Assembly (NCBI GenBank): GCA_018003015.1
Contig: JAGNEZ010000053.1
Coordinates: forward strand, 1 to 44,916
DNA from: Phycisphaerae bacterium
Lineage (GTDB): Bacteria; Planctomycetota; Phycisphaerae; UBA1845; PWPN01
Direction: 5' to 3'
DNA: 44,916 nt
The notes under the pieces are model-generated. The model was not told where the DNA came from. It made no database searches and saw only the letters and a program-made list of their open reading frames with translations. Of the stretch, positions 33,149 through 37,945 are shown piece after piece (the stretch's first letter is position 1; the number at the start of each line of letters is the position of its first letter). A program made the translations under genes and the position numbers.

Positions 33149-34294
33149 TCAATCCAGCTGTTTGCGGAACCTGGTGAGGCTGAGGCCGAGGATGACGAGG
33201 CAACAGATCACCAGCCCGGCGATATGGGGTATGAGGTCGGTTGCGTCGGCCGCGCGGAGGATCACGCCGCGGAGGATTTCCACGAAGTAGGTTACTGGGA
33301 GGATGCAGCTGATGAGGTAGATTGGGAGGGGCATTTCCGAGCGCGGGAACATGAAGCCGGACAGCAGTACGGAGGGCATCATGATGAGGAACGCGAACTG
33401 CATGGCCTGCAGCTGGGTGGTTGCGAGGGTAGAGATCAGCAGTCCCAGTCCGAGGGCGGTGACGATGAACAAGGACGACAGGAGGATGAGCAGCGGGAGG
33501 CTTCCGTGGACAGGCACCTTGAACACGGCGTTCATACCCACGAGGATGACGAGGAGTTCGGCGAGGGCCAGGAGGGCGTAGGGGATCAGCTTGCCGAAGA
33601 GCAAGGCGGCGCGGCCGACGGGGGTCACGAAGAGCTGTTCGAGTGTTCCCTGTTCGCGTTCCTTGACGATGGAGAAGCTGGTCATGAAGACCAGGACCAG
33701 TTGCAGGATAATGGCGATCAAGCCCGGGACGAAGAAGTGTGAGCTTTCGAGGTCGGGGTTGTAGAGCAGGCGGGCGCGGGCCTCGATTGGCAAGGCCGGG
33801 CGGCCGCGGGGATCGCGTGACGGGGCGATCTGGGCCGCCTCGACCACGGCCTTGGCCTTTCCGGTGGAGAGCTGGACAACCAGGAGGCTGACTGCGTTCA
33901 AGGCCGTGCTGGCGACCTGTGAATCGCTGCCGTCGATGAGCACCTGGACCTGGGCCTGTTCGCCGCGGAGCAGCCGTTCGGAGTAGTCGGCGGGGATGAG
34001 GATTCCGGTTTTAGCTCGCCCGCTGGTCATCGCGCGTTGGAGTGTTTGCCTATCCGCGGTGTGTTCGATGACGCGAAACGTTCGCGTGTTGCACATGGCA
34101 TCGATGAGTCGGCGGCTCTCCTGCCGGCGGTCCAGATCGAAGACCGCGAGGGGGATGTTATCGATGGTGACGTTGATGGCGTAGCCGAAGAGGGTCAATT
34201 GGAGTACGGGGACGAAGAGGGCGAAGATGAGGGTGGAGCGATCGCGGCGGATGTGGGAGAATTCCTTGAGGAGGATAGCCCGGAAGCCGTTCAT
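33149..34294 (-). CDS. ABC-2 type permease (YbhS/YhhJ-like)
   Basis: Inner-membrane permease of a drug- or lipid-exporter type ABC system. The 381-residue product has one N-terminal helix (about 20-40), a periplasmic domain of about 130 residues, and five C-terminal helices from about 175, the ABC2_membrane_3 layout. SIVKEREQGTLEQLFVTPV after the second helix is a hallmark of the family. The ATG at 34294 follows GGAGGTG and overlaps the ATPase stop as ATGA; a longer frame upstream lies inside the ATPase gene. E. coli-type systems have two such permeases; only one is present here, so it may work as a homodimer. Confidence 0.92.
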   Translation of the reverse strand: MNGFRAILLKEFSHIRRDRSTLIFALFVPVLQLTLFGYAINVTIDNIPLAVFDLDRRQESRRLIDAMCNTRTFRVIEHTADRQTLQRAMTSGRAKTGILIPADYSERLLRGEQAQVQVLIDGSDSQVASTALNAVSLLVVQLSTGKAKAVVEAAQIAPSRDPRGRPALPIEARARLLYNPDLESSHFFVPGLIAIILQLVLVFMTSFSIVKEREQGTLEQLFVTPVGRAALLFGKLIPYALLALAELLVILVGMNAVFKVPVHGSLPLLILLSSLFIVTALGLGLLISTLATTQLQAMQFAFLIMMPSVLLSGFMFPRSEMPLPIYLISCILPVTYFVEILRGVILRAADATDLIPHIAGLVICCLVILGLSLTRFRKQLD

Positions 34295-35241
34295 GAGGCA
34301 CCTCCCGCCGCCCGCTGACGGCTGAGGAGGACGAACACGTCTTCCAGGGTGGGTCCGATGGGGCGGAAGGTAGCCGCCGAATCGCCTGGGGCGATGTGAG
34401 CCAGGAGGTTCTGGGGGGGGAGGGTTTCCTGGACCAGGACGTGCAAGGCGGTTCCGAACAGGGTGGCGTCGCGGACGGCGGGCAGTTCCCGGCACCGGGC
34501 CAAGGCGGCGGGCGGATTGGCGCAGACGACCTCGAATCGCCGGGTACCGGCGGGCATGACCGCGGGCAGGGCCTTGAGGTCGTCGGGTTCGCCCAGGGCG
34601 ATGAGTTGTGACAGGTGGATGTATCCGACGTGGGTACAGCGTTCGGCCTCGTCCATGTAGTGGGTGGTCACGAGCATGGTGACGCCCTGATGAGCCAAGG
34701 TGAAGAGCAGATCCCAGAGATCCCGGCGGGCGACCGGATCGATGCCGGCGGTGGGCTCATCGAGGAAGAGCATTTCTGGTTCGTGGATCACGGCGCAGGC
34801 CAGGGCCAGGCGTTGTTTCCAGCCTCCGGAGAGATGTCCGGCGAGGCGGTCGGCGTACGCGCCCAGGCCGGTCAGTTCCATGACGCGTTGTTCTCGTTCG
34901 CGTTGACGGGTGGCGTTCAGGCCGTAGATCATGCCGTAGAATCGGAGGTTTTCGGTCACGCTGAGGTCGGCGTAGAGGCTGAATTTCTGGGACATGTAGC
35001 CGATCCGCCGCTTGATGGCCTCGGGGTTGCGGCGGATGTCGATGCCCAGCACTCGGCCCTGTCCGTCGCTGGGTCGGAGGACGCCGCAGAGCATGCGGAT
35101 CAAGGTGGATTTGCCTGATCCGTTGGGGCCGAGCAGGCCGAAGATGCTGGCTCGTGGCACCTCGAAGCTCACCTCGCGGACGGCCACGAAGCTGCCGAAC
35201 CGGCGGGTCAACCTGGTGGTGTGGATGACTGCCTGGTTCAT
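34291..35241 (-). CDS. ABC exporter ATP-binding protein (YbhF/DrrA-like)
   Basis: The 316-residue ATPase has Walker A GPNGSGKST, the Q-loop in IGYMSQKFSLYADLSV, the signature LSGGWKQRLALACAVIHEP, Walker B MLFLDEPTAGIDP and the switch motif VTTHYMDEAERC. These are features of the DrrA/YbhF class that powers ABC-2 exporters. The C-terminal 75 residues form the small regulatory domain often found in this class. Its stop overlaps the permease start and its ATG overlaps the stop of the HlyD gene, so all three are translationally coupled. Confidence 0.94.
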   Translation of the reverse strand: MNQAVIHTTRLTRRFGSFVAVREVSFEVPRASIFGLLGPNGSGKSTLIRMLCGVLRPSDGQGRVLGIDIRRNPEAIKRRIGYMSQKFSLYADLSVTENLRFYGMIYGLNATRQREREQRVMELTGLGAYADRLAGHLSGGWKQRLALACAVIHEPEMLFLDEPTAGIDPVARRDLWDLLFTLAHQGVTMLVTTHYMDEAERCTHVGYIHLSQLIALGEPDDLKALPAVMPAGTRRFEVVCANPPAALARCRELPAVRDATLFGTALHVLVQETLPPQNLLAHIAPGDSAATFRPIGPTLEDVFVLLSRQRAAGGAS

Positions 35242-36374
35242 GGATTGGCGGCCTCTCCCAGCAGGACGTCAGCGGCCATCCCGACGCGGAGCCGGTCCGA
35301 GCCTTGGTCGAGGTACACCTTGATCCGGAACACCTGCTTGCTACGTTCCTCTGGGGTCTGGACATTTCGGGGGGTGAATTCGGCTTCCTGGGCGAGGAAG
35401 GTGAGGCGTCCCTGGAATTGCTCGGTTGGGAAGCTATCCACCCGGATGGGCACTTTCTGTCCGAGTCGGACCTGTCCGAGGCGGGATTCTGGGAGATAAG
35501 CTCGGACCCAGAGGCTGGTGGTATCGAGCAGTGAGACGGCGGGTGCGTTGATGGCGACCAGATCGCCGGGATGGAGATCGATGGCCTCGACCGAGCAATC
35601 GCAGGGTGCGATGACCACGAGTTCCTTGAATCGCACTTGGATCGCCGCCACTCTGGCTTGGGCGGCCATGACCTGGGCGGCGGCCTTGGCGAGGTCTTCG
35701 GTCCGGAATCCGGCCTCCAGGAGTTTCATGGCCTGCTCGGCCTCGGCCAAAGCGGCCTTGGCCTCGGCCAGATCCTCCTTTCGGGAGCCTTCCTCGAGGA
35801 GGGCGAGCTTGAGTTGGGCTGCGGCGGTATCCGCCTTTGCCGCCTTGAGCTGGCGGATGGCCAGGTCGAGTTCGATTTTGGGTGCGGTGCCCTGTTTACG
35901 GAGTGATTCGACGCGTTCGTGCTCTGATTCGGCCAGTTCGAGGCCGGCCTTGGCCCGGTTGAGTTCTTCCCGGGCGATCTCGATCTCCCGAGGGCGGGGG
36001 CCGGCCAGCAGTTTCTCGTGGATCGCGTTCATCCGGTTGAATTTGGCCCGAGCCTGTTCGATCTCCTGGGGGCGATTGCCGGCCTTGAGGCGGGCGTGAT
36101 CGGCCTGGCTGGCGGCCAGTTCGGCTTCGGCCTGTTTGAGTTGCTCCTGAAGATCGAACGGATCGATCCGGAACAAGGGGGTTCCGGCCTTGACTTGCTG
36201 GCCCTCGACGACGCTGACCTCGGCGACCCGTCCGCCGACGCGGGAGCCGACGCGGATCAGATCGGCTTCCACGAAGCCGGAGACGACGAGGGCCTGTGGT
36301 TTGTGTTGCTGCCAATACAACCAGCCGAGGACGCCGAGGCCGGCCAGGACGGCAAGTCCGAGCACCTTACGCAT
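35238..36374 (-). CDS. HlyD-family membrane fusion protein (YbhG-like)
   Basis: The 378-residue periplasmic adaptor has an N-terminal anchor (residues 5-20), a lipoyl-like half (VGGRVAEVSVVEGQQVKAGTPLFRI), a very long coiled coil (about 75-235) and a second half ending in VRAYLPESRLGQVRLGQKVPIRVD. The coiled coil contains four internal repeats that begin with an LxxGxRxxE/D-like turn: LKAGNRPQEIE, LLAGPRPREIE, LLEEGSRKEDL and LLEAGFRTEDL. It is the first gene of the three-gene exporter operon. The 227-base region upstream is shared with the divergent response regulator, which is the obvious candidate to control it. Confidence 0.92.
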   Translation of the reverse strand: MRKVLGLAVLAGLGVLGWLYWQQHKPQALVVSGFVEADLIRVGSRVGGRVAEVSVVEGQQVKAGTPLFRIDPFDLQEQLKQAEAELAASQADHARLKAGNRPQEIEQARAKFNRMNAIHEKLLAGPRPREIEIAREELNRAKAGLELAESEHERVESLRKQGTAPKIELDLAIRQLKAAKADTAAAQLKLALLEEGSRKEDLAEAKAALAEAEQAMKLLEAGFRTEDLAKAAAQVMAAQARVAAIQVRFKELVVIAPCDCSVEAIDLHPGDLVAINAPAVSLLDTTSLWVRAYLPESRLGQVRLGQKVPIRVDSFPTEQFQGRLTFLAQEAEFTPRNVQTPEERSKQVFRIKVYLDQGSDRLRVGMAADVLLGEAANP

Positions 36375-36457
36375 GAGGATTCACCTCCGAAGGAGCTTGC
36401 CCATCTTAGCGTGTGGTCTTTCGTTTGTAACGAGGTGAATGAGACGCAAAATTCCCG

Positions 36458-36485
36458 TTGCAATTAATCCCGCGGCTGATAAACT
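36458..36485 (+). promoter_or_regulatory. Promoter candidate for the response regulator
   Basis: TTGCAA (36458-36463), a 16-bp spacer and TAAACT (36480-36485), four matches of six each, lie in an AT-richer patch about 115 bases before the ATG at 36602. No sigma-54-type GG/GC box was noticed. Confidence 0.3.
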
Positions 36486-36601
36486 GTGGGCCGCGGTCCG
36501 ATAGTGTCGGCCTTGCAGGGTCTTGCGGCCGTTGTGGCGAACGCGAGCCAAGGGAGTGGCGGGAAGCAGTTTCACCACCACACGTCAAGAGGATTGCGGG
36601 C

Positions 36602-37945
36602 ATGAGCGAGAACACCAAGGGCGTCGTGCTTGTCGTCGATGACGAGCCACTGAAGAGAATCACGTTACAGATTGAGCTTTCGCAAGCGGGTTATACGGTC
36701 CTGGATGCCACCGATGCCGAGTCTGCGCTCAGGCAGCTGCAGGCCCGGCCGGTGGACGTGGTGGTCACCGATGTTCGGATGCCCCAGATGGACGGGCTGC
36801 AGTTTCTGGAGCAGATCAAGGTGCACTGGCCGCACACCCACGTGATCCTGATGACCGCTTACGGGACAGTTGATGCAGCAGTCACGGCGATCAAGCGTGG
36901 TGCCCAGGACTACCTGACGAAGCCATTTGCCACGGAGGTGCTGATCCGCAAGCTGGATGGTCTGCGGGCGGCCGGGGTTCTGGGCGGGGCGGCGGGAGCC
37001 CAGCCGGCGGGTGGGGAGCAGGCTGGCCCGCTGGTCGGGTACAGTTACGCGGGGGCCCAACTTTGTCGGCAGGTGCGTGAGCTGACTGGCAACGACTGTG
37101 CCGTCCTGCTACAAGGTGAGACCGGGACCGGCAAGGGTCTGGTCGCGCGGACGATCCATCAGCTCAGCCGTGGTGGCCAGAAGCCGTTTTTGGTGCTGGA
37201 CTGCGATCTGTGTCCGGCGCCCAAGCTGGAGATGGATCTGCCCGCCAAGTTCGAGGAAGCTGCGGGGGGGACCTTGTTTCTTCAGAACGTAGACACGCTG
37301 CCCTCGGAGATCCAGGGTCGGTTGCTGTATCTGCTGGACCGGATGCAGACGCCGCAGGGTGGCGGGCTCGATGTTCGGCTGATCTGCGCGACCGGCTGCG
37401 ACCTGAAGTCTCTGGTTGACTCGGGCGGATTTCGCAAGGATCTCGCCTATCGCATCTCGACCGTGACGGTGACCGTGCCACCGCTTCGCGATCGCCGCGA
37501 GGACATCGTGCCGCTGTCTGAGGCGTATCTACGGAACAGGGCCCAACGGACCGGCGGGCAGACGCTGCGTCTTGCCTCGCAGGCGACGGAGGCCATGCTC
37601 GCCTATCATTGGCCGGGCAACATTCGCGAGTTGGAGCATGTTCTTGAACGGGCCGCGGCCCTGACCAGCGGGGGCCAGATCGAGCTTCGGGACGTTCTCC
37701 TCCCCGAGGAGTCTACCCGCTTGACCTCGACCAGCGCGGCCGCCGACGCGGTTCGCCCGCCGGCGCTGACCGAGACAATCGCCGACATTGAACGGACGCT
37801 GATCGATTCCGCGCTTCAGCGGGCCGCCGGCAACCAAGCCCGGGCCGCTCAGATTCTCGGCATTCCCCGCACCACCCTGCGTGACAAGATGACCAAGTAC
37901 GGCATGGTTGGCACTTCGCAGGGCAAGAGCGACATCGAGACCTGA
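36602..37945 (+). CDS. NtrC-type response regulator with a degenerate AAA+ domain
   Basis: The 447-residue product has an intact receiver (1-120): Asp13, Asp14, phosphoacceptor Asp57, Thr85 and Lys107. The AAA+ domain (about 145-370) has a good Walker A, GETGTGK (172-178), and an arginine-finger region FRKDLAYRIS (277-286). The GAFTGA loop that contacts sigma-54 is missing, with PKLEMDLPAKFEEAAGGT running straight through. Walker B reads TLFLQN (Gln228, Asn229) instead of TLFLDE. A Fis-type helix-turn-helix ends the protein (about 395-435, QARAAQILGIPRTTLRDKM). It should bind DNA and respond to phosphorylation but probably cannot remodel sigma-54 promoters. AGAGGA precedes the ATG. No histidine kinase is nearby. 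Confidence 0.9.
   Translation: MSENTKGVVLVVDDEPLKRITLQIELSQAGYTVLDATDAESALRQLQARPVDVVVTDVRMPQMDGLQFLEQIKVHWPHTHVILMTAYGTVDAAVTAIKRGAQDYLTKPFATEVLIRKLDGLRAAGVLGGAAGAQPAGGEQAGPLVGYSYAGAQLCRQVRELTGNDCAVLLQGETGTGKGLVARTIHQLSRGGQKPFLVLDCDLCPAPKLEMDLPAKFEEAAGGTLFLQNVDTLPSEIQGRLLYLLDRMQTPQGGGLDVRLICATGCDLKSLVDSGGFRKDLAYRISTVTVTVPPLRDRREDIVPLSEAYLRNRAQRTGGQTLRLASQATEAMLAYHWPGNIRELEHVLERAAALTSGGQIELRDVLLPEESTRLTSTSAAADAVRPPALTETIADIERTLIDSALQRAAGNQARAAQILGIPRTTLRDKMTKYGMVGTSQGKSDIET

Follow-up and report, generated by a model that had tools for sequence, protein, structure and literature searches.

An NtrC-type response regulator lacking the GAFTGA loop in a Phycisphaerae bacterium, and repeated loss of the loop among its orthologues

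Domain layout and upstream region of the regulator gene

The window analysed comprises positions 1-44,916 of contig JAGNEZ010000053.1 of a Phycisphaerae bacterium (genome G000). On its forward strand, the open reading frame at 36602-37945, which opens with ATG at 36602 and closes with a stop codon at 37945, encodes a 447-residue protein. We assigned it as an NtrC-type response regulator on the basis of the reading frame, Pfam matches, alignments, and a tree. The protein has the receiver, AAA+, and Fis-type helix-turn-helix (HTH) layout of group 1 NtrC-type bEBPs. Specifically, the receiver spans residues 9-118 (36626-36955; Pfam Response_reg), the AAA+ domain residues 145-295 (37034-37486), the AAA+ lid with the sensor II segment WPGNIREL residues 296-365 (37487-37696; Pfam AAA lid), and the HTH residues 393-433 (37778-37900; Pfam HTH_8). 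The Pfam Sigma54_activat match covers residues 145-290. The receiver has the acidic pocket D13/D14, the phosphoacceptor D57, T85, and K107 of a phosphorylatable domain, and these residues are unchanged in 20 of 20 orthologues. We infer that the regulator is phosphorylated at D57.

The HlyD, ABC ATPase, and ABC-2 permease genes of a putative exporter (33149-36374, reverse strand) diverge from the regulator gene. In the gap between them (36375-36601), the sole recognisable feature is a promoter-like element, TTGCAA-N16-TAAACTG (36458-36486, forward strand), which we located by its conservation upstream of family orthologues. In 10 of 11 family orthologues, the looser form TTGC-N18-TAN[AC][CG]T precedes the start codon by about 96-217 bp, and it occurs in 0.3% of cases in shuffled upstream sequence; the exact form TTGCAA-N16-TANACTG has a single match in the 6.86-Mb genome. 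The element is conserved across the family while the flanking intergenic sequence is not. Judged by its conservation and spacing, it is likely the regulator's own sigma-70-type promoter. A generic sigma-70 scan did not call it. The orthologues favour ATG 36602 over a longer reading frame opening with TTG at 36458, the start of which falls within the conserved element. A simple pattern scan for -24/-12 sigma-54-type sites found none upstream of the regulator in G000, and matches across the window were no commoner than in shuffles. A search for palindromes shared upstream of the regulator genes and the kinase genes described below gave nothing clearly above shuffled controls and recovered no conserved operator.

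Motifs of the AAA+ domain

Alignment with NtrC1 (PDB 4l4u, 1ny5) reveals a 15-residue gap in the AAA+ domain exactly at the GAFTGA position. The segment beginning FGYEKGAFTGA is missing between L213 and P214 (about 37240), which is also the main AAA+ gap relative to solved NtrC-family structures. The gap is placed identically in alignments with 10 paralogues or relatives and with 19 orthologues, and no displaced GAFTGA-like loop was found in the alignments of the regulator. The Walker B position reads FLQNVD, compared with FLDEIG in NtrC1, so that Q228-N229 (37283-37288) replace the Asp-Glu pair. The Walker A motif GETGTGKG, the arginine-finger segment FRKDLAYR, and the sensor II segment WPGNIRELEH are kept. 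Hence, of the two motifs taken to mark ATP hydrolysis, Walker A is present and Walker B is not, and the L1 motif GAFTGA, which marks sigma-54 activators, is absent from the regulator and all family orthologues. A preliminary description of this locus had read the protein in the same way, with a deleted loop, a Gln-Asn pair in Walker B, and otherwise intact receiver, Walker A, arginine finger, and Fis-type domain; the alignments confirm each of these motif assignments. Loss of GAFTGA also supports its prediction that the protein would not act on sigma-54. By these motif comparisons, the regulator has lost the contact loop and the Walker B acids and conserved the receiver and HTH.

We ran the structure prediction that the preliminary description had suggested. 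The model (mean pLDDT 80) retains the AAA+ core, and helix 206-219 leads nearly straight into the Walker B strand 224-228 at the L1 site. The placement of the domains relative to each other is unreliable (pTM 0.54). The best solved matches to the model are structures of NtrX from Brucella.

A local frameshift or assembly error was considered and rejected. Both the gap and the Gln-Asn pair recur in the sister species G001, and ten more family orthologues are loop-less. The preliminary description had named close relatives with canonical motifs as a sign of such an error; on checking, the whole family shares the loop defect, so that it is not a sequencing or assembly artefact.

A search for sigma-54 found it encoded in the regulator's genome and in each of the 48 good-quality genomes covered, which rules out loss of sigma-54 as the cause of loop loss. 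Of the genome's 16 further good matches to the sigma-54 activator domain, 14 retain a GAFTGA-like loop, such as GAFTGA, GSFTGA, or GAFTDA. The regulator thus departed from sigma-54 control in a genome that retains the system. Two other proteins of this genome are also irregular. L193 (G000:C35:16754-17254, reverse strand) is a second GAFTGA-less regulator with a TyrR/PhhR-like layout of PAS-like N-terminus, AAA+ domain, and Fis-type HTH; its Walker A is present, GAFTGA is missing (ELFGEGHAPPGTIG), and Walker B reads VEGVD. L192 (G000:C4:104265-104747, forward strand), just downstream of the intact L186, is a degenerate activator with GAFPGA, a Walker A without its lysine (GEPGVGVDF), and no receiver in frame.

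Repeated loss of GAFTGA among orthologues

We searched 61 genomes and defined the orthologue group by E ≤ 1e-80, which sets it apart from many paralogues. A single orthologue was found in 12 of the 13 genomes of the regulator's family, G007 being the one without, and in a wider sampling of the order, 31 of 114 genomes had one. GAFTGA is missing from all 12 family orthologues. Most orthologues in the sister family f4 are canonical, with GESGTGKE, GAFTGA (or GAFTSA/GAFTNA), and LLDEVDD, and more distant Planctomycetota homologues also have a canonical AAA+ domain. The tree, built without the loop columns, requires three changes of loop state, and three are forced by well-supported branches alone. 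The loss points lie below the family plus G016, in the G061/G049/G069 group, and in G025. Hence, there were at least three independent losses of GAFTGA. The G025 orthologue (L165; G025:C5, about 106864-107832, reverse strand) is complete, although the first search had returned just a part of it; besides representing the third independent loss, it has a lid region lengthened by a long insertion. A distant relative in a Desulfovibrionaceae metagenome-assembled genome (L036; DFDR01000238.1, UBA3823, 1196-2572) has a broken GAFTGA (ETASSAGA) and keeps Walker A and B.

The Walker motifs of the loop-less orthologues vary. The Gln-Asn pair, for which the preliminary description had proposed a survey, is present in both species of the regulator's genus and in no other orthologue; the others lose Walker A or Walker B differently. 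Four proteins (G004, G012, G010, and G008) have lost the lysine or the loop of Walker A, and a fifth (G006) has it altered; the variants include GETGSGAE, GEAGTCRE, and CEKGAAPE and the altered form GENGTKKG. In these proteins, the Walker B acids are kept or nearly so. Conversely, Walker B is lost or changed and Walker A kept in G000, G001, G002, G003, G011, G005, and G009. The motifs thus indicate that, within the loop-less clade, the ATPase then decays by differing routes. Since some orthologues have lost Walker A and others Walker B, nucleotide binding and hydrolysis are not conserved requirements.

Averaged over pairs, members of the loop-less clade are 69% identical in the receiver, 46% in the AAA+ domain, 51% in the lid, and 82% in the HTH, which is the best-conserved part of the protein. 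The corresponding values for the intact sisters are 81%, 82%, 71%, and 84%. As receiver and HTH identity was held while that of the AAA+ domain fell, it was mainly the ATPase that was released from constraint. Between G000 and G001, dN/dS is 0.07 overall, 0.026 for the receiver, 0.08 for the AAA+ domain, and 0 for the HTH, in which there is not a single amino-acid change. Constraint on the ATPase domain was therefore eased and not removed, and purifying selection persists.

Proposed mode of action and relation to known regulators

A sensor kinase of one orthologous type lies directly upstream of the regulator gene on the same strand in G016 and G005. Its orthologue in the regulator's genome (G000:C6:43240-44259) has intact HisKA and HATPase domains and is unlinked to the regulator. 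Among the 61 genomes, kinase and regulator each occur in 20 and share 17 (Fisher p 2e-9, uncorrected for relatedness); within family f4 they also co-occur (Fisher p 0.01, uncorrected for shared ancestry). Adjacency of the orthologues and co-occurrence indicate that G000:C6:43240-44259 is likely the cognate kinase. In several f4 genomes, an ECF-sigma-factor-like gene lies in the kinase neighbourhood (L156, 1441-2041 relative to the kinase start; L157, L158, and L164).

With its NtrC ancestry, lost GAFTGA, and retained HTH, the protein fits the class of sigma-54-independent NtrC-type regulators, and we are confident, short of certainty, that it is a phosphorylation-controlled DNA-binding regulator of this kind. 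D57 of the receiver would be phosphorylated by a histidine kinase, for which the orthologue named above is the likeliest candidate. Acting through the receiver and what remains of the AAA+ scaffold, phosphorylation would change how the protein oligomerises and so set the Fis-type HTH on operator DNA. Housekeeping (sigma-70-type) promoters would then be activated by recruitment or repressed by occlusion, and ATP-driven remodelling of the sigma-54 polymerase would not be involved. The repressor or sigma-70-type activator role put forward in the preliminary description accordingly stays the best reading, with loop-less NtrC of Caulobacter and R. capsulatus (PMC10274813) and TyrR, DhaR, and HupR (PMC3162934) as precedents for the mechanism. 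Because the AAA+ domain was kept and not deleted, some role, such as oligomer interface or nucleotide sensing, must remain for it.

The preliminary description had proposed ATP gating, with nucleotide bound and not hydrolysed. In this form of the mechanism, the bound nucleotide would lock the DNA-binding oligomer. It agrees with the loss of the Walker B acids in a protein that still has Walker A, sensor II, and the arginine-finger segment, and NtrC of R. capsulatus is reported to need ATP binding but not hydrolysis (cited in PMC10274813). However, the orthologues whose Walker A is lost or altered still keep receiver and HTH. ATP gating is thus possible for the G000 protein, does not hold for the family at large, and seems doubtful to us overall. 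A proposal about the target and compatible with phosphorylation control is that the regulator acts locally on the divergent exporter, from which it is separated by 227 bp in G000, an arrangement repeated in G001. This pairing is confined to the two species of the genus; no other orthologue examined has the exporter beside it, a different gene lies upstream in most of the family, and these neighbourhoods exclude it as a conserved partner beyond the genus. The earlier view of the exporter as a likely target is thereby weakened: local control is unlikely, and the three genes are possibly a target at genus level at most.

The regulator might instead join an intact sigma-54 activator in mixed hexamers and tune that activator as a dominant-negative or modulatory partner, given that sigma-54 and about 14 NtrC-type proteins, intact or nearly so, are still encoded in the genome and that the lid and arginine-finger segments persist. 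Yet the family genomes have one match each at E ≤ 1e-80, leaving no intact co-orthologue to pair with; the other G000 matches listed are about 34% identical; and the strong constraint on the HTH points to DNA sites of its own. We regard such a partnership as very improbable. The differing loss of catalytic motifs from lineage to lineage, together with the missing orthologue in G007, could also suggest a pseudogene decaying towards loss. This idea is strongly disfavoured and scarcely credible: the reading frame is open in every species of the family, 12 of 13 family genomes retain the gene, dN/dS is low with an unchanged HTH, and the promoter-like element is conserved.

Several known proteins resemble the phosphorylation-controlled regulator proposed here. 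NtrX of Brucella abortus (PDB 5m7n, 5m7o, 5m7p) likewise combines a receiver, a GAFTGA-less AAA+ domain, and a Fis HTH, and is the best match to the predicted model by structure and the second best by sequence, with 28-30% identity over the structural alignment. It retains the Walker B Asp-Glu lost in the regulator and is not an orthologue, as the regulator scores 248 bits compared with the NCBIfam NtrX cut-off of 600. The regulator is likewise below the NtrC equivalog cut-off (302 versus 559 bits). In NtrC of R. capsulatus and Caulobacter, the L1 loop with GAFTGA is deleted and regulation of sigma-70 promoters has been reported (PMC10274813). These proteins, from a different bacterial phylum, keep receiver and HTH as the regulator does, but Caulobacter NtrC requires its Walker A and B residues, whereas the regulator has no Walker B and Walker A is unconserved among its orthologues. 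TyrR, DhaR, and HupR are reported to be sigma-70 dependent (PMC3162934). HupR, TyrR, DhaR, VpsR, and YplP, like the regulator, descend from sigma-54 activators and have a broken GAFTGA element. They control other regulons, some of them are not two-component response regulators, and they may not be its orthologues. Closest are the intact f4 orthologues of the same order (e.g. L013, L015, and L018), which have the same receiver and HTH with the recognition-helix segment GIPRTTLRDKM. Unlike the regulator, they carry GESGTGKE, GAFTGA, and LLDEVDD and are predicted to be true sigma-54 activators.

Known loop-less NtrC-type regulators are single cases, mostly from Proteobacteria. Here, one Planctomycetota orthologue group spans versions from intact through partly to fully decayed that share the receiver and the recognition-helix segment, and what it adds to the known cases is graded, repeated loss inside a single group. 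We tentatively suggest, at slightly less than an even chance, that the loss was not only repeated, at least three times, but staged, with sigma-54 contact shed first and ATP binding or hydrolysis afterwards while kinase, receiver, and DNA recognition stayed fixed. The orthologues would then form a natural series from sigma-54 activator to sigma-70 regulator, with the promoters of the regulon possibly switching from -24/-12 to -35/-10 in step. For the regulator's family, the annotation "sigma-54-dependent regulator" is wrong. The orthologue group raises the question of what an AAA+ domain serves once its ATPase is dead, and makes the move of a regulator and its promoters from sigma-54 to sigma-70 a testable one.
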